From: Stenotrophomonas sp. 278
GTDB taxonomy: Bacteria > Pseudomonadota > Gammaproteobacteria > Xanthomonadales > Xanthomonadaceae
Length of the DNA: 52,375 bases
Assembly (NCBI RefSeq): GCF_003935715.1
Contig: NZ_RHPP01000013.1
Location: 1-52,375, forward strand
Direction of reading: 5' to 3'
Shown here: positions 9,814 to 52,375 of the stretch, in pieces
Layout of the letters: the number at the start of each line of letters is the position of its first letter
Position numbering within the stretch: the stretch's first letter is position 1
Made by a program: the position numbers and the translations under genes
The notes under the pieces: model-generated
Databases searched by the model: none
The model's input: only the letters and a program-made list of their open reading frames with translations
What the model was told of the DNA's origin: nothing

Positions 9814-12426
9814 TTACCGGCCCATCGCCTCGGCCACGTGACGCACCCGCAACGCGTCCGCCAACGCCTTGGCGCTCTGATCCGCCTTGACCCGGATCCG
9901 CACCGGCTCCCCGGGCACCAGATCCAGCGCGTTGTCATCAAGTACGGCATCGAAGCCGTCAAACTCGACCCAGACCCCACGCGCCAGCTGCGCCGAGCGC
10001 AGCTCCAGCACGCTGTCATCGCCCTCGCGAACCCAACGGCTGACGATCTTCGCCTCCGGCAGGCGCATGTCCTTGGCCGCCGCGAAATACACCACCTGCC
10101 GCGATATCACCTGCTCACCGTCGAGCAGCTCCGCCACGGCCACGGTGCGCTTTGGATCCGCCTTGCCCAGCAGCTGCGCATCGGTGAACCGCCCCACCTC
10201 CAGCGCCGCCAACGGGGGCACCGTCACCGCCTTGCGCTCATCGCGGCGCACACGGCCATCCACATCCATCACCCGCAAGCGCCACGCCCCGCGCAGCGGC
10301 TCGGTCCGGTCGTTGAGCAGACTCACCCGGGTCACGCCCTCATCGCGCAGCGCGGCGACGGCATGACCGGCGAAGAAGCGCTTGGCGTGGAAATGCAGCG
10401 CCTTCCAGCGCCCGTCGTAATCGACGCTCGACCACGACGCCCCCGGCCACACGTCGTTGAGCTGCCAGTACAGCGAGCCCATCGTGTACGGACGTGACGC
10501 CCGATGGTGCAGCGCGGCCAGCGCGATGCCTTCGGCCTGGGTCACCTGGCTCAGGTAGACGAAGTCATCGAAGTTGCGCGGCGTACCAAACTCACGCTCG
10601 ATGTACTGCAGCAGGCGCTGGTTGCCCTCGCCCGCCATGAACTTCTGGTGCGCCTTCACCACCGGGCTGTCCACCTGCCGCTGGTCGGCGGGAATGATGC
10701 CCTCCAGCGTCTTCATCGACGGCCACGCCTGCAGGCCGTACTCGGACATGAAACGCGGGGTCTCGCGAAGATACGCCTGCACCGGCAGCGCCGGATTGCC
10801 CCACACCTGCCAGTAGTGCTTGTCGCCACGGGTCGAGTCGTTGGCCTTCTCGTCGAGGTCGTTGCTGGGCGAACTCGACCAGTACGGTACGCCCAGTCCG
10901 TGCTCGCTTACCACCTGGCGCAGGTCGTGGCCGAACAGGTCCACGTAGCCCTGCCAGACCTTCTTCGCAAACGCCGGGTCGGCCGCGGTCAGGTCGCGGC
11001 CGTGGCCCCAGTCCTTCCACGCGGTCTCTTCTTCATTGTTGCCACACCACAGCACGATGCTGGGATGGCGGCGCAGCCGGCGCACGTTGTCGCGCGCTTC
11101 GGCCACCACGTTCTGGCGAAACGCGGGGTCATAGCCGGGCTGCATGCCGCCGCCGAACATGAAGTCCTGCCAGACCAGCAGGCCGAGCTCGTCGGCAATG
11201 TCGAGGAAGGTGGAATCCTCGTAATAGCCGCCGCCCCAGTTGCGCACCATGTTCATGTTGGCGTCGCGTGCGGCGGTGAGGTCGCGACGCAGGCGGGCGG
11301 CGTCCACCCGGGCCGGGAACGCGTCGAACGGAATCACGTTCGCGCCCTTGGCGAAGATCGGCACGCCGTTGATGACGAATGCGAAGCCCTGGCCGCCATC
11401 ACGGTCGACCTCGCGGCGCAGTTCCACCGTGCGCAGCCCGGTGCGCAGCTGTTGCTCCACCCTGCCCTGCTTGCCGGCGTCGACTACGGTGCGCACGGTG
11501 TAGCGCGCCTGTTCGCCGTAGCCCACCGGCCACCAGCGGCGCGGGTTCGCCAGCTGCACCGGTACGGAAACCACCTGGATGCCCTTGCGCAGGCTGGCCT
11601 TCTGCTCGACGACGGCGGCGACGCGGCCGTCCGGGTCGACCAGCGACACCTGCACCTGGGCATTGCCGGCGGCTGCGCGTTCGATCTCGACATCCACCTG
11701 CAGGGTCGCTCGGGTTTCATCCAGCGCCTGCGTCTGCACGGCCACATCGGTGATGCGCTGTGCATCCCAGCTGTCCAGCATGACCGGACGCCAGATGCCC
11801 GCCGTCACGTAACGCGGGCCCCAGTCCCAGCCGAAGTGGTAGCCGGGTTTGCGCACGAAGTTGCCGACCATCGCATCTTTGGGTTCGTCGCCATAGGGCG
11901 AAGGATAGTTACCGGCGATCTTGTGCGGCATCGCCTGCACGCCGGACAGCAGCGTGGTGATCGGCGAACGGAACACGATGCGCAGGGTGTTGCCCTGTGC
12001 CTTGAGCCGCCCGTCCACGCGTGCGCGCCAGGTGCGGTGGCTGTTGTTCGCCTTCAGCAGCGGGCGATCGTTGAGGGTGACCTCGGCGAAGGTGTCCAGC
12101 CCCTCGAAGGTCAGCTCGGCGTGCGCATTGGCCAGCGTGGTCGCGTCGACGTCGAAGCGGGCCTGGTATTCCCAGTCGGCCAGCCCGATCCACTGCAGAC
12201 CGGCTTCGGGTGCGCCTGCGTAGGGGTTTGGGATCAGCTGGTGGGCCAGCAGGTCGGTGTGGACCGAGCCGGGGACCTGTGCGCTGCGCCATTGAGTGGC
12301 TTCGGGGTTAGCGATTGCCTGGGCGTTGCCTGGGAGGAGGCGGAAGGACCATTGGGCTGACAGCGGGGTGGCTGCGGCTGGCAGCGCCCAGAGCAGAATT
12401 AAAAGCAGAACGCCCAATCGCTGCAT
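9814..12426 (-). CDS. exported GH2 beta-mannosidase
   Basis: An 870-residue protein with a Sec signal peptide (MQRLGVLLLILLWALPAAA). It has the GH2 order: sugar-binding jelly roll (~residues 25-215), immunoglobulin-like domain (~220-335), then a TIM barrel. The catalytic acid/base is Glu465 in WCGNNEEETAW and the nucleophile Glu562 in SEYGLQAWPS; WDWGPRY near 200 is typical of beta-mannosidases. It should remove the beta-1,4-mannose of N-glycan cores or mannan oligosaccharides in the periplasm. It is the last gene of the leftward group LacI-transporter-fructokinase-isomerase, separated from the isomerase by a REP pair. The nixE-nixL N-glycan cluster of Xanthomonas campestris also contains a GH2 enzyme. 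Confidence 0.93.
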   Translation of the reverse strand: MQRLGVLLLILLWALPAAATPLSAQWSFRLLPGNAQAIANPEATQWRSAQVPGSVHTDLLAHQLIPNPYAGAPEAGLQWIGLADWEYQARFDVDATTLANAHAELTFEGLDTFAEVTLNDRPLLKANNSHRTWRARVDGRLKAQGNTLRIVFRSPITTLLSGVQAMPHKIAGNYPSPYGDEPKDAMVGNFVRKPGYHFGWDWGPRYVTAGIWRPVMLDSWDAQRITDVAVQTQALDETRATLQVDVEIERAAAGNAQVQVSLVDPDGRVAAVVEQKASLRKGIQVVSVPVQLANPRRWWPVGYGEQARYTVRTVVDAGKQGRVEQQLRTGLRTVELRREVDRDGGQGFAFVINGVPIFAKGANVIPFDAFPARVDAARLRRDLTAARDANMNMVRNWGGGYYEDSTFLDIADELGLLVWQDFMFGGGMQPGYDPAFRQNVVAEARDNVRRLRRHPSIVLWCGNNEEETAWKDWGHGRDLTAADPAFAKKVWQGYVDLFGHDLRQVVSEHGLGVPYWSSSPSNDLDEKANDSTRGDKHYWQVWGNPALPVQAYLRETPRFMSEYGLQAWPSMKTLEGIIPADQRQVDSPVVKAHQKFMAGEGNQRLLQYIEREFGTPRNFDDFVYLSQVTQAEGIALAALHHRASRPYTMGSLYWQLNDVWPGASWSSVDYDGRWKALHFHAKRFFAGHAVAALRDEGVTRVSLLNDRTEPLRGAWRLRVMDVDGRVRRDERKAVTVPPLAALEVGRFTDAQLLGKADPKRTVAVAELLDGEQVISRQVVYFAAAKDMRLPEAKIVSRWVREGDDSVLELRSAQLARGVWVEFDGFDAVLDDNALDLVPGEPVRIRVKADQSAKALADALRVRHVAEAMGR

Positions 12427-44986: not shown

Positions 44987-45715
44987 TTATCGGGCAACCC
45001 GATGCCCCCGCCGATACTCCGCGGGCGTCATCCCCCACTCGCGGCGCAAGGCACGGGTCAACGCACTCTGCTCCGAGTACCCCGCCTGCTGCGCGATCTC
45101 CGCAATCGACGCGTCGCTTTCCACCAATTGCGCGCGCGACCACCGCAAACGGCAGCCGCTCAGCCAAGCCTGCGGGCTCAGTTCAAACGCCTGCTGAAAC
45201 AGTGCATGCACGCGGCTGCCACTCACCCCTACTGCCGCCGCAATCCGTGCCACCGGCCAGTCCTGCCCCGGTGCCTGCGCGATCCGCGCGCACACCGCCT
45301 GCAAGCGCGTCGCCGTGCCCGCCGGCGAAAATGCCTGCAGCAGCACCGGCAGCTCGCGGTCGACCACCGCGTCGTCCACCGCCTCACCCGGCAACATCGC
45401 CAGCCGCCGCGCCATCGCCCGCACCGGGGCCGGCAGCGCCAGGGTCGGCAGCGCGTTCAAGCGCTCCAGTGTGTGGTCGTCGAACATGTCGGCCGGGCAA
45501 TCGACAATCAGGAACCGGTCGTTGACCGTCGCCGTCTGCGCGTGCCCCGCATGCGGAGCCACGAAAATGCCCTGCAGCACATCCAAGCGACTGCCCCGCC
45601 CTTCCAGTTCAAACGACAGTTCGCCCTGCAGCGGCACCACCCATTGCGCCACGTCATGTCGGTCCACCGAAGAGGACGGCCCATAACGGCGCAGGTTGAA
45701 GGCAGCGGGTGGCAT
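44987..45715 (-). CDS. AraC-family transcriptional regulator
   Basis: A 242-residue regulator with an N-terminal cupin-like domain (~1-100, VVPLQGELSFELEGRG) and a C-terminal AraC DNA-binding domain. Its two helix-turn-helix parts are WPVARIAAAVGVSGSRVHAL and ASIAEIAQQAGYSEQSALTR, ending WGMTPAEYRRG. Start 45715 (MPPAAFNLRRYG) is chosen over 45802, whose extra segment runs into a dispersed repeat. It lies upstream of the EamA transporter on the same strand, a common regulator-exporter pairing. Confidence 0.88.
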   Translation of the reverse strand: MPPAAFNLRRYGPSSSVDRHDVAQWVVPLQGELSFELEGRGSRLDVLQGIFVAPHAGHAQTATVNDRFLIVDCPADMFDDHTLERLNALPTLALPAPVRAMARRLAMLPGEAVDDAVVDRELPVLLQAFSPAGTATRLQAVCARIAQAPGQDWPVARIAAAVGVSGSRVHALFQQAFELSPQAWLSGCRLRWSRAQLVESDASIAEIAQQAGYSEQSALTRALRREWGMTPAEYRRGHRVAR

Positions 45716-45798
45716 GACAGAACGTGGCAAAACCCAGACAGGACGGCCAGTCTGCCCCCCCGGCTGCCCCGCTGCAACGCACCACGTGCACCGGCCCT

Positions 45799-45872
45799 TC
45801 ATTGCAATGGCGCGTGGCGACGCGTTCGTCGCCTGGACGCCGTGCTACTACGTCGGCGCGGCTTGCCCGGCT
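45799..45872 (+). repeat. dispersed 74-bp repeat, copy 2
   Basis: Matches the reverse complement of 38531-38604 at 71 of 74 positions and ends in the CGGCTTGCCCGGCT half of a REP-like arm. Located between the araC-type gene and the exported two-repeat protein. Confidence 0.8.
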
Positions 45873-45965
45873 GCTCTTCGCGCACACCACACCCGCCTCT
45901 GTAACCTCCCCCAAAACCCCCGGTGCTATATTCCAAACCGTCCCGTACAGCAAAGGAGTGCCGCC

Positions 45966-46787
45966 ATGACGAACCCCCGCCTCCCCGCCCTGTTAGCCCT
46001 GGCCCTCGCCACCACACCACTCGCCAGCGCCGAGACCGCCACCACCCCACTCCCGTCCAACTCGCCCAACCGCGTGGCCCCGGCCCCGAACTGCATGGAC
46101 GCCCGCGGCCTGCGCGAAATGAACCAGGTGAGCGACACCCACATTTCCCTGCGGGCCGCCGACCAGTCCACCTGGAGGGTGACGTTCAAACAGAACTGCC
46201 CCGGGCTGATGGCCTCGCCCAACCCGCAAATCCTCGCGGAAGAAAGCTGGGTCTGCGGCACCGGTCAGGAACGGGTAGTGGCCGGTGGCAAGGACTGCGG
46301 CATTGCCTCGGTTGAGCCGATGACCCGCAAAGAGTTCGCTGAAGAAGCCCGGCAGGCCGACCGTGGCGGCATCGCCACCCTGGCCGCCGTCAACGTAAAA
46401 GAACAGAAGCGTACCCTGCGTGGCTCCTCGTCGTACTGCTTCGACACCCGCAACGTACGCAGCTACGGCGACAACGTCAAAGGCTTCACTGTGCAGACCA
46501 ACCCCAAGCGCTCCGGGGGCAACAAGGAGTATGTGGTCGAAGTGGGAGCCAACTGCCGCGCCCTGATGCATTCGCCCGCCATCCAGTTCCGCTCCGGCTT
46601 CGGTACCAGCCTGATCTGTGGCAACCCCGGCGACGTGGTGGTGATGATCTCGCAGCCTAATGCGCCCGGCGGCGGCGATGCGACAGGCGAAGATCTGTCG
46701 TTCATCAACCGCAGCGCCGGCCTGCCGCGTGCCTCGTTAGGCATCGGCGACCGCTGCGATGTGCTGGCGGTATATCCGGCGGGTTGA
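45966..46787 (+). CDS. exported protein with two DUF6491-like repeats
   Basis: A 273-residue protein with a Sec signal peptide (MTNPRLPALLALALATTPLA, cleavage near ASA). Two related units follow: residues ~43-120 (CMDARGLREMNQVSDTHISL, FKQNCPGLM, DCGIASVEPM) and ~155-270 (CFDTRNVRSYG, VGANCRALM, DRCDVLAVYP). The Cys-x-D-x-R start, the N-C-x-x-L-M middle and the C-x(2)-x-V-x-P end are shared, and the Cys residues could form disulphides. The pattern resembles DUF6491 proteins; function unknown. AAGGAG lies 7 bases before ATG 45966. A bidirectional terminator follows. Confidence 0.8.
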   Translation: MTNPRLPALLALALATTPLASAETATTPLPSNSPNRVAPAPNCMDARGLREMNQVSDTHISLRAADQSTWRVTFKQNCPGLMASPNPQILAEESWVCGTGQERVVAGGKDCGIASVEPMTRKEFAEEARQADRGGIATLAAVNVKEQKRTLRGSSSYCFDTRNVRSYGDNVKGFTVQTNPKRSGGNKEYVVEVGANCRALMHSPAIQFRSGFGTSLICGNPGDVVVMISQPNAPGGGDATGEDLSFINRSAGLPRASLGIGDRCDVLAVYPAG

Positions 46788-46811
46788 ACGAATCCCCGGA
46801 TCCAGAAACGG

Positions 46812-46838
46812 AAAGGCCCCGGCAGAACCGGGGCCTTT
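46812..46838. terminator. bidirectional terminator between convergent genes
   Basis: An 11-bp perfect stem AAAGGCCCCGG (46812-46822) with CCGGGGCCTTT (46828-46838), loop CAGAA. It lies between the exported protein (plus) and the PA2169-type gene (minus) and carries A/T tracts on both sides. Confidence 0.88.
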
Positions 46839-46858
46839 GCTTTACAGCACTGAAAGAA

Positions 46859-47308
46859 TCAGTGCTTCATTGCATGCTTGCGGTCACGCATCACCGCATG
46901 GGTTTCCTGCACGGTGGGCAGGAAGCGGGTGATCTCCTGGCGGGCAGCCGGGGTCAGGTCGTTGTCGGTGGCGGCATCCTTGAAGGCCTTCAGCAGACGA
47001 TCTTCGGATTCTTCCAGCTCGGCCACGTAGCCGTACTGCGTATCGCCCAGCGCGGCGCGGACCTTGCCATAGAACTGCTGCATGGAACCGACCATGGTGC
47101 CGTGCTTGGCGGGTTCACCACCGGTGGCGACGACGGTGCTGCTCAGCGAGGTGACGATGTCGGCCTTGACGCCCGCAATGCGGGTGAACAGCGCGGACAG
47201 TTCGGCGTCCTTCACCTTGCCTGCGGCTTCGGTGTAGAAGTCCTTGCCGTCGCGGGCGATTTCGATCAGGTCGTTGAGGGTGTGCTCGGTGTTGGACTGG
47301 GTGCTCAC
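46859..47308 (-). CDS. PA2169-type four-helix-bundle protein (DUF2383)
   Basis: A 149-residue, all-helical protein. LNDLIEIARDGKDFYTEAAG, LFTRIAGVKADIVTSLSS and YVAELEESEDRLLKAFKDAA form the ferritin-like pattern of DUF2383/PA2169 proteins, often stress-induced and of unknown function. The start is GTG at 47308 (MSTQSNTEHT), with AGGAG 9 bases upstream; the extra residues from 47386 are rejected. It is monocistronic and convergent with the preceding gene. Confidence 0.88.
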   Translation of the reverse strand: MSTQSNTEHTLNDLIEIARDGKDFYTEAAGKVKDAELSALFTRIAGVKADIVTSLSSTVVATGGEPAKHGTMVGSMQQFYGKVRAALGDTQYGYVAELEESEDRLLKAFKDAATDNDLTPAARQEITRFLPTVQETHAVMRDRKHAMKH

Positions 47309-47482
47309 GTGTATCTGCTCCTGTTGTTTCGCGGATGTAATTCGCGGATGGCCCGTCTTGGGTGAACTCACTTTTCCCGATTGCAAATGAAGTCCGCGTG
47401 ACCTTCAAATCACATCGTTAAGCCTTGTATTGCTGCTGAAAAACCGATGTCTTCAACATGTCTACAAAACGCATTCAGAACA

Positions 47483-47758
47483 TCACCTCGTGGTTCCGCG
47501 TCGCTTGATGTGGGCCATCACCTGGCCCACGATCGCGGTCATCAGCACCAGGCTGTTGGTCACCACGAATACCCACGATTCGAGCAGCACGCTGTACAGG
47601 ATGAACAGCAGCGACGCCGTGATCTGGCCCACGAAAAGCCAGCCCGACACGGCTTCGGTGCCCTCGGCCTTCCACTGTTTCCAGATCTGCCGCCACAACG
47701 TGGCCACGAGTACCAACGTGGCGGCCCATCCGATGAGATCGACCGGCTGAAGGGTCAT
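47483..47758 (-). CDS. SemiSWEET/PQ-loop-like small membrane protein
   Basis: A 91-residue protein with three hydrophobic segments: LIGWAATLVLVATLWRQIWK, GWLFVGQITASLLFILYSVL and FVVTNSLVLMTAIVGQVMAH. This size and topology match a single MtN3/PQ-loop unit as in bacterial SemiSWEETs, which work as dimers to move sugars; a lipid-A-related PQ-loop role is also possible. The ATG at 47758 overlaps the glycosyltransferase stop by 4 bp, so it is the last gene of the five-gene operon. The substrate is unknown, possibly the operon product or its precursor. Confidence 0.82.
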   Translation of the reverse strand: MTLQPVDLIGWAATLVLVATLWRQIWKQWKAEGTEAVSGWLFVGQITASLLFILYSVLLESWVFVVTNSLVLMTAIVGQVMAHIKRRGTTR

Positions 47759-48510
47759 GCCCATTCAGGGATGAAGCCGATCCCCGTGGCGGGCGCTTCC
47801 TTGCCGGCTTGCGCCGAGGGTACGGGCGAAATGCGCGGAGCGTCACCGCAGTGGCTGGCCTCCGCCTCCAGACACTTCAGGAAATGGCTGAAGCCATTCG
47901 GGGCGCGTGCTTCGCGCCGGGCGCTGGTCGTCACCCGCGGTGCGCCCAGGCGCGCCACTTCGCAACCGGCACGTTCGATGGCATCGATCAGTGCCACGTC
48001 TTCCCCGCAGTTCAGCGGCTGGAAGCCGCCCGCACGCAGGTAGGCCGCTGCGCTGAAACCCATGTTCGCGCCATGGACGTGACGATGGCCGTCGCGGGCG
48101 CGCTCACTGCGCGCAAACCGCCGACGCACCGAGCGTGCATAGCCCTCCCAGTCGTCTACCTGCACCACGCCACAGAATGCCTCCGCGCTGCACGCCAGCT
48201 GTGCGGCGAACCAGTCGTCCGGCACCACGGTGTCGGCATCGGTGCAGCAGATCCACCGCGCGCCTTGTTCCAGGGCGATTTCGACAAGACGCGCGCGGGC
48301 AACGCCCACGCAGCCTGCGTCCAGGTGCAGCACGTCAACGCCGAAATGCGCGCACACCGCTTCGGTGGCGTCACTGCACCGGTCGAGTCCCACCAGGATG
48401 CGAACCTCTTCCCCCGCCAGACCCGGATGCCTTGCCGCCTGCTGCAACGACTGCAGGCACGCGCCGATCAGCGCCGCCTCGTTGTGGGCAGGCACGATGG
48501 CCGCGATCAT
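47755..48510 (-). CDS. GT2-family glycosyltransferase
   Basis: A 251-residue cytoplasmic glycosyltransferase of family 2 (GT-A fold). It opens MIAAIVPAHNEAALIGACLQ and has the nucleotide-sugar/metal motif DAD at residues 91-93 (CTDADTVVPDDW), HGANMGFSAAAYLRAGGF and the acidic GEDVALIDAI. It has no membrane segments, unlike NodC. The start overlaps the methyltransferase stop by 4 bp. Donor and acceptor are unknown. Confidence 0.9.
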   Translation of the reverse strand: MIAAIVPAHNEAALIGACLQSLQQAARHPGLAGEEVRILVGLDRCSDATEAVCAHFGVDVLHLDAGCVGVARARLVEIALEQGARWICCTDADTVVPDDWFAAQLACSAEAFCGVVQVDDWEGYARSVRRRFARSERARDGHRHVHGANMGFSAAAYLRAGGFQPLNCGEDVALIDAIERAGCEVARLGAPRVTTSARREARAPNGFSHFLKCLEAEASHCGDAPRISPVPSAQAGKEAPATGIGFIPEWA

Positions 48511-49094
48511 CGCAGGCCCTCGCGCGCGGCCACCGAGGTGGTCATGCGTGACCAGCCCTGCAGCAGCAGGTCTTCATCGCGGTAACAGAACAGCTGCGGA
48601 AGCCGCGCGTCGAACTGGGCGTGCACGAAGCCTGCACTGCAGCGCGCCTCTTCGAACTCGTGCAGCCAGTGGCAGCTGACCAGAACACCATCAAATGAAA
48701 GGCTCCCACACAGCCGCCCCGCCATGTCCCGCATCTGTTCGGGTGGCAGGTAATAGCCGATCTCGCTGAACATGATCAGATCGAAGCGCCCCTCCGGCCA
48801 TTGCGCGGGATGCTGCGCGCATTCAAGGGTGACATGGTCCTGCCCGGCCAATGACGCACGGGCCGTGGCAATGGCCGCTTCGCTCAGGTCGGTGGCATGC
48901 AGCTGCGCGCAGCGGTGCGCCAGCTCGGCGGTAAGCACTCCATTGGAACACCCCAGCTCCCAACCGCGCTCGTAGCGCGGCGAAGGCAGGCTGGCCAGCA
49001 GCAATGCGCGCTTTCGCGCCTCGTACCAACGCGTGCGGTAACCGAACGGGTCGTCACTTTCGTAGATGTGGTCGAAGTAAGCGAGATTGCTCAT
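48507..49094 (-). CDS. NodS-like SAM-dependent methyltransferase
   Basis: A 195-residue class I methyltransferase. It begins YFDHIYESDDPFGYRTRWYE, a feature of NodS-like proteins, and has the SAM-binding ELGCSNG (residues 46-52) with HATDLSEAAIATAR and FDLIMFSEIGYYL. NodS N-methylates the deacetylated glucosamine of Nod factors. Position between the PIG-L deacetylase and GT2 genes, with 4-bp overlaps on both sides, suggests methylation of an amino sugar freed by the deacetylase. The substrate is inference. Confidence 0.88.
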   Translation of the reverse strand: MSNLAYFDHIYESDDPFGYRTRWYEARKRALLLASLPSPRYERGWELGCSNGVLTAELAHRCAQLHATDLSEAAIATARASLAGQDHVTLECAQHPAQWPEGRFDLIMFSEIGYYLPPEQMRDMAGRLCGSLSFDGVLVSCHWLHEFEEARCSAGFVHAQFDARLPQLFCYRDEDLLLQGWSRMTTSVAAREGLR

Positions 49095-49879
49095 GAAAGC
49101 AGCACCTCGTAGTCACGCTGGAACCGCCGCAGCACGTACTCGGGAAGAATCGGCGGGCTGGTGAGCTCACGAACCGCGCCGGTCTGGGTGACGAATTCCT
49201 CGATGGCCTGGCGCTTGCGCAGCAGCAGCGAAGGGGCCAGTGCGAATCGCGAAGCGCCCTGCCACACCCGTGGTGCGACTGCCGGGTCCAGCCAGTGCCA
49301 GCCCCACACGGGGTACTCGCGCAGCCCGCAGCCGCACACCGCTGCCGCCTGCGCACACGCACGCCCCACCGCTTCATGGTCCGGGTGTCCGTCCAGATGC
49401 CACGGGGCCAGCAGCAGGTCCCCTTGGCGCAGCACCTCACGCAGCCACTGTTGCAGCTCTGCTTCCTGCGAGGCCACCGCACCGTCGCTCACATGCCAGG
49501 CAATTCTTGGCGCTTCCGCCAGCCCCAGCCGCTCCAACGCCCGATCCAGTTCCAGCTGCCGGGCGTCGCGCAGCCGCTCCGGCGGCCAGTCCGGCTGGTC
49601 CGGATAGCACGCCTCGCCGTCGGTGACCGACACGACCAGAACCTCGCGCCCAAGCGCATGGGCGCTGGCCATCAGCCCGCCACAGGCCAGCACCTCGTCA
49701 TCGGGGTGCGGCGATACCACCACCAGACGCTCGACGCCCGCAAACAAGCGCTCAGGGTCTTCGGTGGGAAGCGCACGCAGCCAGGCACACTCGCGCCACG
49801 CCTGCTCCGGCACGCCGTCGCCTTCAATCCGGCGCAGCTCGGCATCCGCCTTGATGGCGGGCTTGTTCACAGACGCCAT
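49091..49879 (-). CDS. PIG-L family deacetylase
   Basis: A 262-residue zinc deacetylase of the PIG-L/LmbE family. HPDDE at residues 58-62 (VVVSPHPDDEVLACGG) and the second metal motif in HLDGHPDHEAVGRA are present. Family members remove acetyl from N-acetylglucosamine-containing conjugates (PIG-L, MshB, BshB). Start 49879 (MASVNKPA) overlaps the end of the acyl-CoA dehydrogenase-like gene by 13 bp; its stop overlaps the methyltransferase start by 4 bp. Confidence 0.9.
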   Translation of the reverse strand: MASVNKPAIKADAELRRIEGDGVPEQAWRECAWLRALPTEDPERLFAGVERLVVVSPHPDDEVLACGGLMASAHALGREVLVVSVTDGEACYPDQPDWPPERLRDARQLELDRALERLGLAEAPRIAWHVSDGAVASQEAELQQWLREVLRQGDLLLAPWHLDGHPDHEAVGRACAQAAAVCGCGLREYPVWGWHWLDPAVAPRVWQGASRFALAPSLLLRKRQAIEEFVTQTGAVRELTSPPILPEYVLRRFQRDYEVLLS

Positions 49880-50847
49880 GGGTGTTCCTCCGCGTGGCAC
49901 AGCGCGCCCTGCTCCTGCCAGTCGCGGTCGGCATGGCTTTGCCGGATGAACACCGTCAGGTCGCTCCAGCGCTGCGCGTGGAAGGTGTCCAGGCACATCG
50001 GCCCGGGCCCCAGTGCTCGCCCCACCAGATCCAGCACATGCGTGCAGGCGCGCTCGACCACGCTGCGCACGCGCATCACGGCCAAACGATGGGACGCGTG
50101 CGGGTCGGCATCGATCTGCGCCGCCAGCTCGCGCAGCAGTGCCGCGCAGCTGGCCAGTTGCATGTCCACCTCACCCAGCAGCCCGGCAGCGACGCCCGGT
50201 TGGGCGCAGCGCTCAGCGCGTCGCAGGGGCTCGGCCAATGCCACCGCGGCACCGTACCAGCACGCGGCAATACCGGCCCCGCCGTGCCAGAAACCCGGTC
50301 TTTCCAGATACGCGTTGCTGGCCCCGATCTCCACCGCCGGCACCTGGTTGAAATGCGCCGTGCCGCTGGGGATGCGCGCCATGCCCGTCGCCACCCAGCC
50401 AGCAGTGTCGAACTGCACGCCGGGATGGCGCGCGTCCACCAGGAACAGGCGCGTGCGTTCGTCCTCGCGCACCGTCACCAGCGCAACGTCGACCCAGCCG
50501 GCACCGGAGCACCATGGCTTGCTGCCGCTCAGCGTACGGCCACAGGGGTCGAGCTGCAGGGTCTCCTGCGGACCGTGCGCCGCCCACACCGCACCCAGCG
50601 CCTGTGCCGGCGGCAGGCGCTCCGGGGCGAGGGCCAGCAGGATGGCACGCGCGTCATAGTGCGCTTCCAGTACTTTCACCAGGCACAGGTCCTGCGCCGC
50701 CATATGCGCGAGCGCCTGCCAGCGGCCCAGCGTATCGCCGCCACCCGGCATCGGCAGTGCGGGGACTTTCGCCACCCAGGCACGGGCAGCCGTTTCGACC
50801 GGGTCGCCGGCCCGTGCCGGGGTCGTTTCGTGCAGCACCGCGACCAT
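49867..50847 (-). CDS. acyl-CoA dehydrogenase-like flavoprotein, first gene of the five-gene operon
   Basis: About 326 residues, shorter than typical acyl-CoA dehydrogenases (~380). GRTLSGSKPWCSGAGWVDVA is the FAD-binding middle segment, and the helical C-terminal part contains the block from RSVVERACTHVLDL to VGRALGPGPM. The catalytic Glu could not be identified with confidence, so the substrate may not be an acyl-CoA. GTG/ATG alternatives exist; ATG 50847 (MVAVLHETTP) has GGAAGG 8 bases upstream, and the ATG at 50940 would add 31 residues of unclear value. It leads an operon with PIG-L, NodS-like, GT2 and SemiSWEET-like genes. Confidence 0.82.
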   Translation of the reverse strand: MVAVLHETTPARAGDPVETAARAWVAKVPALPMPGGGDTLGRWQALAHMAAQDLCLVKVLEAHYDARAILLALAPERLPPAQALGAVWAAHGPQETLQLDPCGRTLSGSKPWCSGAGWVDVALVTVREDERTRLFLVDARHPGVQFDTAGWVATGMARIPSGTAHFNQVPAVEIGASNAYLERPGFWHGGAGIAACWYGAAVALAEPLRRAERCAQPGVAAGLLGEVDMQLASCAALLRELAAQIDADPHASHRLAVMRVRSVVERACTHVLDLVGRALGPGPMCLDTFHAQRWSDLTVFIRQSHADRDWQEQGALCHAEEHPWRL

Positions 50848-51025
50848 CAGGGCACCTTCCCTGTCAAAAGAGCCATGAGCATCTCCAAGAAGCAAAGTTC
50901 TTAGATACCCATCAGCGCATGCGAACTTCGTGACCAGCATGTAGGTACGGCGTGCAGCATGTGCGAGGCCGCATTCACCGGTCTCTCGTCATGAGCTCTA
51001 CGCGGCGCTATCGCCTTGCGTTGAC

Positions 51026-51352
51026 ATGCAGCGTGAAACCATCACGGCGTCCCCGTTCCCCGCATTTCCCATGCAGCAGATCGAAGCCCCCCTCCAGGCC
51101 TTGCGCGCGCAGATACCGCCGCCGCCCCAGACCCCTGAGCCCACCGCCCCGCCGGTGGAAGCACCGCCACCGGAAGAGCCGACCCGCGAAGATCCGCCGA
51201 ATGAGGCACCGCCGGAGCGCGATCCGCCGCCGGCCAAGCCACCCTTGGAAGCGCCGGTACCGCCACGCGAGCGCGCCCAGACGCGCTACGTGTTCGCAGA
51301 GGGCCGCTGGCAGCACATGGAGCGCCACTGTATCGCGATGGCATTGGGATGA
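51026..51352 (+). CDS. small proline-rich hypothetical protein
   Basis: A 108-residue frame with a central Pro/Glu-rich stretch (IPPPPQTPEPTAPPVEAPPP, EEPTREDPPNEAPPERDPPP) followed by a C-terminal VFAEGRWQHMERHC. Codon use is consistent with a real gene: CCG dominates and third positions are mostly G or C. There is no clear Shine-Dalgarno; an internal Met at 51071 (MQQIEAPLQALRA) could be the true start. Disordered, no known domain, function unknown. Convergent with the membrane-protein gene downstream. Confidence 0.5.
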   Translation: MQRETITASPFPAFPMQQIEAPLQALRAQIPPPPQTPEPTAPPVEAPPPEEPTREDPPNEAPPERDPPPAKPPLEAPVPPRERAQTRYVFAEGRWQHMERHCIAMALG

Positions 51353-51378
51353 TGGCGTTGGGACGATAATCGGGACGC

Positions 51379-51438
51379 TGGTAGGGTCGCACGCCAGTCG
51401 ACCGCCCGTATCGCCTCAACGTCCTTTAGGGCATGACC
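51379..51438 (+). repeat. 60-bp direct repeat, copy 1
   Basis: It begins TGGTAGGGTCGCACG and ends GGGCATGACC, with about 51 of 60 positions identical to 52046-52105. It contains GTAG plus a GGTCG / CGACC hairpin. Located just beyond the 3' end of the membrane-protein gene. Confidence 0.8.
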
Positions 51439-51454
51439 TTGGAACGGCCTCCCT

Positions 51455-51949
51455 CTAACGCGCCCATAAACACCGCCAGAACTCATACGCCCATGGCATC
51501 ACCACCACAACCATCGCCGGCACCACCACAGCCGCCCATAACCACCCCGGTGCAGGCTGCCACACCAGCTCCCACCCGGGCCGCATCTGGAACGCGATCC
51601 ACACCAGAAACACCCAAGGGGCCACGTCCAGCACACTGTGCACATGCTGCTCAATCGGGCTGATACGCCGACGACCGTCTGCGCTGACCGTATCCCAATA
51701 CCCCGCGATGGCGTGCACCAGCACGGCACTACCCAGAACCAGCACCAGCCCAAGCGTGGGAGCCAGCGCCAGCCAGGCCAGCACGCTTCCGCCGATGACC
51801 ACCAGCTGCACCGCGTGCAGGGTGCTCTCGCCCAGCCCCGAGGTATGCGGCAGGTCGGTACGGCGATGCAGGTGAAAGTCGGCCGTACCCGCAAGCAGCC
51901 ACAGCGCGTAGACGACCGCCATCACGATATTGATATGGTTCATTTCCAT
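51455..51949 (-). CDS. polytopic membrane protein of unknown function
   Basis: About 164 residues from MEMNHINIVMAVVYALWLLA. Five or so hydrophobic segments are visible, for example VQLVVIGGSVLAWLALAPTL, LVLVLGSAVLVHAIAGYWDT, VLDVAPWVFLVWIAF and WLWAAVVVPAMVVVVMPWAY. The conserved-looking loops ADFHLHRRTDLPHTSGLGES and RRRISPIEQHVHSVLDVAP contain several His residues. I do not recognise the family. The start at 51949 or 51943 is uncertain. It is flanked on both sides by copies of a 60-bp direct repeat and has no obvious partner gene. Confidence 0.75.
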   Translation of the reverse strand: MEMNHINIVMAVVYALWLLAGTADFHLHRRTDLPHTSGLGESTLHAVQLVVIGGSVLAWLALAPTLGLVLVLGSAVLVHAIAGYWDTVSADGRRRISPIEQHVHSVLDVAPWVFLVWIAFQMRPGWELVWQPAPGWLWAAVVVPAMVVVVMPWAYEFWRCLWAR

Positions 51950-52045
51950 CCACGCAGAGTCGCACGGTAGGACGTAAACGCAGGGCGAGGCTGCCGTGTA
52001 CAGCAACTCAATCGACCGCGATCAATCGGGATTCAGCCCGCTCTT

Positions 52046-52105
52046 TGGTAGGGTCGCACGAAAGTCGACCGCCGATGACGGCTCAACGCCCTTTGGGGCA
52101 TGACC
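52046..52105 (+). repeat. 60-bp direct repeat, copy 2
   Basis: TGGTAGGGTCGCACG to GGGCATGACC, with a GCCCTTTGGGGC hairpin at about 52088-52099. Located upstream of the membrane-protein gene, 667 bp from copy 1 and in the same orientation. Confidence 0.8.
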
Positions 52106-52360
52106 ACCAAACGCAGCCACCTCCCCAAAACCGACCAAACGCCCACACGCAGACGGATCGAGCCTCGAAGCAGTATCCCGTATAGTCCCTTCCAGAAGTA
52201 CAGGATCGGCACGAAGGCCAACACATCAAGGATCGAGAACAATGACCAGCAATCATCCACGCGAACCGCGCACGCATCACCGCGCCAGAATCAGCCTCGG
52301 GTTCACCCCCGTTTTCACGGACACTTACAAGAAGGCCGATCCAGGCCATGAGGAGTGTTC

Positions 52361-52375
52361 ATGTCAAAGCGTAGA
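52361..52375 (+). CDS. first five codons of a gene cut by the window edge
   Basis: ATG at 52361 reads MSKRR and has AGGAG at 52351-52355, 5 bases upstream. Too short to identify. The 255 bp before it (52106-52360) hold no frame I would support; the composition is lower in GC than elsewhere in the window. Confidence 0.45.

Follow-up and report, generated by a model that had tools for sequence, protein, structure and literature searches.

The window operon and its protein families

The minus strand of a 52,375-nucleotide stretch of DNA from Stenotrophomonas sp. 278 (contig NZ_RHPP01000013.1, positions 1 to 52,375; the whole stretch is termed the window) carries an operon of five genes, four of which form a cassette conserved in five phyla. 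A sequence-only reading of this DNA had named five protein families, had taken gene overlaps of 13, 4, 4 and 4 bp as evidence of one coupled unit and had drawn a parallel to Nod-factor enzyme activities, with a modified amino-sugar conjugate or glycolipid as the suggested product. The five genes, led by a flavoenzyme of the acyl-CoA dehydrogenase (ACAD) fold, and their downstream neighbour are as follows.

49867..50847, minus strand: ACAD-fold flavoenzyme, 326 aa; leading gene of the cassette
49091..49879, minus strand: PIG-L family deacetylase, 262 aa, motifs PHPDDE and HPDH; PF02585
48507..49094, minus strand: NodS-like class I S-adenosylmethionine (SAM) methyltransferase (MT), 195 aa; PF05401 NodS
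47755..48510, minus strand: GT2 glycosyltransferase, 251 aa, DxD at 91-93; PF00535
47483..47758, minus strand: SemiSWEET-like small protein, 91 aa (93 aa with start 47764); accessory, non-core
46859..47386, minus strand: PA2169/DUF2383 four-helix-bundle protein, downstream neighbour; TIGR02284 151.5 bits, cut-off 44.8

The overlaps were confirmed in the open reading frames of the window and recur in relatives, and the overlapping cassette is one coupled unit. ACAD and PIG-L share 13 bp, PIG-L and MT 4 bp, MT and GT2 4 bp, and GT2 and the SemiSWEET-like gene 4 bp (ATGA), or 10 bp if the alternative in-frame ATG at 47764 is used. A GGAAGG motif lies 7 nt 5' of the ACAD ATG (50847), and the open frame allows an alternative start at 50940. 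No Rfam family matched positions 45000-52375 at the gathering threshold, promoter and terminator scans did not rise above shuffles and a sigma-70-like site was not found in 46800-51600.

The protein families of the sequence-only reading were borne out by Pfam, with the SemiSWEET-like protein falling just under the cut-offs. By its fold and its match to the ACAD middle domain (35 bits; cut-off, 33.3) the leading protein belongs to the acyl-CoA dehydrogenase superfamily. Its sequence profile ranked several flavin monooxygenases at the top (5gj7/5z8t, DszC, MsuC) and its motif KxWCSGA resembles KHFCSGA of DszC; fold comparison scored dehydrogenases higher than TdsC and MsuC, both monooxygenases, by 1 to 1.5 Z units and does not decide between the two types. 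Residue E182, conserved in 41 of 42 aligned sequences, presumably occupies, as judged by motifs, the position of the isovaleryl-CoA-dehydrogenase catalytic base. The position of the base in the medium-chain acyl-CoA dehydrogenase type would, on the same motif comparison, read RQSH. Either oxygenation or dehydrogenation is possible for such a protein, and one option is a sugar N-oxygenase, nitrososynthase-like enzymes of this kind appearing weakly in the profile list (E 0.001-0.01). No support was obtained for the proposal that the enzyme acts on a lipid part. The Deinococcus radiodurans ACAD (L143:8543-10882) is annotated at 779 aa, with ~420 residues N-terminal to the ACAD domains; these extra residues matched no Pfam family at E 0.001.

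The second protein is a PIG-L/LmbE deacetylase by its PF02585 score (88.1 bits; cut-off, 28.2) and its two motifs, and Pfam gave no further family at E 0.01. Residues H58, D60, D61, H165, D167 and H168 were invariant in 35 of 35 aligned sequences, and the best PDB matches of its profile were diacetylchitobiose deacetylases (1e-22). The only other PIG-L match of the genome (E 0.001) lies in a separate operon on contig C305 (L136:7744-11476) with a GT2, a hexapeptide-repeat protein and a YaiO outer-membrane barrel, a combination that suggests surface polysaccharide work.

MT matched methyltransferase families and NodS (PF05401, 33.1 bits; cut-off, 24) and lies outside the NodS equivalog of NCBIfam (NF041650, 49.5 bits; cut-off, 300). 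The closest PDB entry to its profile was 4isc (8e-71), named only 'Methyltransferase', followed by NodS 3ofj (1e-29); among solved structures whose role is assigned, NodS is thus the nearest. NodS is an N-methyltransferase acting on de-N-acetylated chitooligosaccharide. In an MT tree whose only two outgroups had long branches and whose bootstrap had not converged, the window MT fell in a 44-row group (support 99/96) and four NodS sequences fell outside it. An origin of NodS inside this group was tested on the same tree and found no support.

The fourth protein is a GT2 glycosyltransferase by Pfam score (PF00535, 46.1 bits; cut-off, 23.3), GT-A fold and DxD motif, and its fold is closest to WrtF and to teichoic-acid and capsule GT2s. 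The parallel drawn earlier for deacetylase, NodS-like MT and GT2 stood. The SemiSWEET-like protein scored 21.4 against PQ-loop (cut-off, 22), 19.6 against MtN3_slv (23.7) and 23.3 against NCBIfam SemiSWEET_2 (80), and is not assigned to the SemiSWEET transporters.

Conservation and distribution of the four-gene unit

Peptide patterns of the window ACAD were used to scan 84,980 species genomes; 81 relatives were obtained, of which the best 80 were kept. Partners scoring at least 90 bits were PIG-L in 68, MT in 74 and GT2 in 67 of the 80 loci; 56 loci had the complete set, 75 had three or more of the genes and two had ACAD alone. ACAD lay within 3.5 kb of the locus end in nine. The conserved unit is ACAD, PIG-L, MT and GT2. 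Where neighbouring cassette genes shared a strand, 176 of 203 junctions overlapped, vs 106 of 585 other same-strand junctions in these loci, as counted with a simple purpose-made gene caller on junctions that are not independent; the overlaps exceed chance. Certain lengths recurred: the 59 ACAD/PIG-L junctions showed mostly 13, 7 or 4 bp, and 4 bp prevailed at the 61 PIG-L/MT and the 41 MT/GT2 junctions.

Gene order varied among lineages. The order ACAD-PIGL-MT-GT2 was found in Stenotrophomonas, Luteimonas, Acinetobacter, Pseudomonas, Herbaspirillum and Actinomycetospora, GT2-ACAD-PIGL-MT in Rhodococcus, Gordonia and Polaromonas, and PIGL-MT-GT2-ACAD in Edaphobacter and Granulicella. PIG-L and MT were called as a single reading frame in three actinobacterial loci (L028, L031, L050). 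The L020 MT, for which another methyltransferase had been picked, and representatives beyond set length limits were left out of the alignments. A 419-aa gene overlaps the MT end by 4 bp in six Rhodococcus loci (L026, L033, L036, L037, L041, L044), the L036 copy (10347-11603) being an EAL-DICT protein. Two genomes carry a second PIG-L 3' of the cassette (L123:4032-4766, L124:8392-9117), followed in the former by a TonB siderophore-receptor-like gene (L123:1720-3816).

Presence and absence within the genus were scored with profiles of ACAD, PIG-L and GT2. All three matched the same 29 of 61 Stenotrophomonas genomes (own included) at E 1e-20 and were jointly absent from 32; no genome held one of the three without the others (Fisher 4.6e-18, kinship ignored). 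Conserved linkage in relatives, the absence of which had been offered as grounds for rejecting the operon, was thus present in both samples. In a wider phylum sample ACAD was found in 22 of 299 genomes, by a search that scored at most seven candidates per genome and may have missed some. PIG-L lay within 300 bp of ACAD in 16 of the 20 genomes outside the genus; in one it was ~1.5 kb away and scored weakly, and the remaining three had it elsewhere.

The full four-gene set occurs in five phyla. All four genes lie together in Alphaproteobacteria, Deinococcus sp. NW-56 and Nostoc, and the cassette is also present in Actinomycetota. In D. radiodurans a helicase gene interrupts the region that holds ACAD, PIG-L and MT, and GT2 gave no match. 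Plasmid copies were found in Acinetobacter, Pandoraea, Comamonas, Cupriavidus, Bradyrhizobium, Sulfitobacter and others. Phage carriage was considered because two 'Acinetobacter phage MD-2021a' records matched, and was rejected: the one examined (L155) has bacterial metabolism genes around the cassette, and both records look like bacterial chromosome. Three A. baumannii records labelled 'plasmid' and 3.7-4.1 Mb long (NZ_CP077849, NZ_CP064203, NZ_CP104448) have the same appearance.

The fifth gene of the proposed operon did not share this conservation. SemiSWEET was found in 24 of 61 genus genomes, adjoining the cassette GT2 in 13 of the 29 with a cassette (one on a broken contig) and present in three of the 32 without, and a SemiSWEET-like gene occurred in five of the 80 ACAD-selected loci, on the opposite strand in three. 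It is an occasional extra outside the conserved core of four genes. Two same-genus genomes have a GT2 and SemiSWEET pair apart from the cassette (L133:6417-8658, L132:6047-7002), preceded in L133 by a zinc alcohol dehydrogenase like that preceding cassettes elsewhere; these pairs are possibly leftovers of a second cassette. The DUF2383 neighbour was matched in 47 of 61 genus genomes irrespective of the cassette, and a PA2169-family gene lies directly upstream of ACAD in Cupriavidus basilensis.

Genomic neighbours and published expression

Neighbouring genes were examined in 121 cassette loci of ~5-27 kb each, a redundant set (L003 and L134 are the same record) from which L145, an ACAD without partners, was excluded. 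A catalase relative was found in 22 loci, a trehalose/alpha-glucan enzyme in 14 and both Ku and LigD in four (L055, L077, L125, L146); weight was put on these four, as nine of the 13 LigD matches were of a Rhodococcus type at ~86-102 bits. Catalase was present in 14 of the 80 ACAD-selected loci. In two sets of flanking genes from 32 chosen loci (125 of 128 and 128 of 131 genes used), catalase was the most frequent Pfam family (6/125 and 4/128). Within 10 kb of the cassette in the 20 non-genus genomes, catalase was found in three and otsA in three, as compared to 0.16 and 0.07 expected from copy number.

The strongest associations took the form of operons. The cassette lies between otsA and otsB on two Comamonas plasmids, with a 4-bp overlap with otsA; OtsA of C. 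antarctica has the sequence of a standard trehalose-6-phosphate synthase. In two further genomes otsB and otsA are directly upstream of the cassette. In two genomes of one genus, probably Pseudomonas by gene content, TreY is followed by GlgX and then by ACAD, whose predicted start is ~1 bp from the GlgX stop. The Legionella lytica cassette, in the order PIGL-MT-GT2-ACAD, comes after otsB and a GH65 enzyme. On three Acinetobacter plasmids otsA is nearby, and two of these have annotated otsB, catalase and xseA genes there as well. In Bradyrhizobium the genes downstream of the cassette include Ku, LigD and RpoH, and catalase is a few genes away in Sulfitobacter and Novosphingobium. The association with trehalose and catalase genes is confined to part of the relatives and does not extend to the window's own genus. 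In three distinct records of that genus a zinc alcohol dehydrogenase gene ends beside the ACAD start (L003:6716-7954, also L134; L004:6746-7936; L137:4431-5690), and in another it lies one gene upstream (L135:9308-10660); the protein is formaldehyde-dehydrogenase-like, far under the cut-off, and none was seen upstream of ACAD in the window.

One published table provides expression data for what appears to be the same set. A. baumannii ACICU_02432 (glycosyltransferase), 02433 (SAM-dependent methyltransferase), 02434 (LmbE) and 02435 (putative acyl-CoA dehydrogenase-related) share one operon letter and are all down 31- to 62-fold in two colistin-dependent mutants, in a list that also contains otsA, otsB and catalase (PMC5660220, Table 2). 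The section with this table proposes no function for the four genes. This paper alone, in the literature searched, names all four together, although an earlier mention in work on Pseudomonas syringae trehalose loci is possible, and no assigned function for the cassette was found. The available portions of PMC6599016, PMC10325922 and PMC8084333 name no such cassette, and the available portion of PMC8005017 describes a PIG-L gene of an LPS (lipopolysaccharide)-core cluster. The enzyme types themselves are known; as far as these searches show, their combination, its distribution and the trehalose link are undescribed.

Proposed function and known systems

The neighbours in a minority of relatives, together with the expression table, place the cassette in a context of trehalose, catalase and stress and away from symbiosis. 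No evidence was found for a link to symbiosis or for a product of lipochitin type. The sequence-only reading is partly supported; the unit is more widespread than was proposed and is recast as a four-gene stress cassette. We put at about 0.5 the probability that this is a cassette for survival of osmotic, desiccation and oxidative stress, making a soluble N-methyl amino-sugar glycoside that works with or alongside trehalose. The substrates, step order, product and phenotype that we infer are as follows. GT2 would transfer an N-acetylated sugar, probably N-acetylglucosamine (GlcNAc) from UDP-GlcNAc, onto a small acceptor; the PIG-L enzyme would then take off the N-acetyl group, MT would N-methylate the freed amine and the flavoenzyme would oxidise the product by oxygenation or dehydrogenation. 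The SemiSWEET-like protein may, in some lineages, move the product or its sugar precursor. An order of GT2, de-N-acetylation and N-methylation is the most economical, because PIG-L lies near diacetylchitobiose deacetylases and MT near NodS.

Other products were weighed on the same evidence. A low-molecular-weight redox cofactor like mycothiol or bacillithiol, whose glucosamine glycoside is built by a glycosyltransferase and a PIG-L enzyme, is judged improbable. It would suit the catalase neighbours in 22 of 121 loci and is faintly echoed in the likeness of PIG-L to BshB1 (49.5 bits) and MshB (23.2 bits). These scores are far below the cut-offs (182.5 and 224.35, respectively), as is that for BshB2 (33.2 bits; cut-off, 195.25), the annotated flanks examined showed no cysteine ligase (no genome-wide search being made), and the cassette glycosyltransferase is GT2 whereas MshA and BshA are GT4 enzymes.

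A modification of cell-surface glycan or lipid (LPS core or glycolipid), with deacetylation and methylation tuning charge, is judged quite unlikely. It would account for the fold likeness of GT2 to WrtF and the teichoic-acid and capsule enzymes, for extra glycosyltransferase genes beside the cassette in Novosphingobium and Jiella, and for the lowered expression in colistin-dependent A. baumannii, mutants that PMC5660220 ties to LPS loss or defects. However, polysaccharide genes adjoin only some copies, the four proteins had no noticeable signal or membrane anchor (no predictor being run), and the presence of the cassette in Actinomycetota and Deinococcus argues against a role in LPS.

Somewhat less doubtful, though still unlikely, is an exported natural product or signal, a conjugate resembling a Nod factor or an aminoglycoside, whose genes are merely located in accessory stress islands. 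In its favour are the patchy occurrence of the cassette (29 of 61 genus genomes) and its carriage on plasmids; the likeness of MT to NodS, the nearest structure of assigned role, transporter genes near some copies (major facilitator superfamily, SemiSWEET) and a TonB-receptor-like gene two genes beyond GT2 in one genome point the same way. Yet the transporters vary by lineage, the annotated flanks examined held no polyketide, peptide-synthetase or NodA-type partner, the trehalose and catalase association recurs in separate lineages, and expression is coordinate with otsAB and catalase (PMC5660220).

Several observations weigh against the stress-survival cassette itself. Most cassettes have no catalase or trehalose gene beside them, and the 13 tested own-genus genomes all lacked catalase and otsA within 10 kb. 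The 80 loci were chosen by window-ACAD patterns, include close relatives and overlap the later locus sets; within them PIG-L fell below 90 bits in 12, GT2 in 13 (eight of a Caballeronia type) and MT in six, some at contig ends. One genome has ACAD and MT far from PIG-L and GT2, Roseomonas has ACAD-PIGL-MT without a nearby glycosyltransferase, and a Methylobacterium plasmid ACAD relative has no annotated PIG-L, MT or glycosyltransferase in 20 kb. The ACICU genes were matched to Acinetobacter cassettes by name and order, not by sequence, and the experiment (PMC5660220) concerned colistin-dependent mutants, not stress as such.

A bolder form of the stress reading, which we hold only tentatively and regard as less probable than not by a wide measure, is that the cassette makes a new class of stress metabolite with trehalose as its base or attached to it, namely an N-methylated amino-sugar-trehalose or a similar glycoside, in at least five phyla. 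OtsAB, TreY/GlgX and OtsB with GH65 appear to have joined the same cassette separately, and such a metabolite would have been missed because each gene is annotated singly. If the stress reading is right, many soil, plant-associated and clinical bacteria make an undescribed stress compound, a partner or derivative of trehalose in desiccation and osmotic tolerance. PIG-L, NodS-like and short ACAD proteins would then share a common job, which would bear on the origin of NodS.

The cassette resembles parts of the Nod-factor and mycothiol pathways and lacks the tested defining features of both. As in the rhizobial Nod-factor backbone genes nodC-nodB-nodS, a GT2-type synthase, a deacetylase and a methyltransferase of the NodS family (1e-29 by profile) lie in one operon. 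In contrast to that system, the deacetylase is PIG-L (PF02585) and not of the NodB type, GT2 has 251 aa as compared to the annotated 1311-nt nodC, MT is outside the NodS group and below the equivalog cut-off, an extra flavoenzyme is present and the context is stress, not nodulation. No NodA N-acyltransferase was found in the window operon or the annotated cassette regions examined (no genome-wide search being made), and the parallel holds for activities only. With the mycothiol and bacillithiol pathways (MshA/MshB, BshA/BshB) the cassette would share a role in stress physiology, a glycosyltransferase and a PIG-L enzyme that de-N-acetylates a GlcNAc glycoside; it differs in using GT2 in place of GT4, in not reaching the MshB/BshB equivalog cut-offs and in having a methyltransferase and flavoenzyme in place of the cysteine ligase. 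A Sulfitobacter indolifex plasmid encodes the same trio of activities as one fused glycosyltransferase/class I SAM-dependent methyltransferase/polysaccharide deacetylase (L160:2396-5476), but its deacetylase is annotated as a polysaccharide deacetylase and not PIG-L, no ACAD lies in the 8.6 kb examined and its MT, unlike that of the window, groups with NodS (92/93, not starred). A further counterpart is A. baumannii ACICU_02432-02435, which, compared by name and not by sequence, has the same four functions in the same order in one listed operon.

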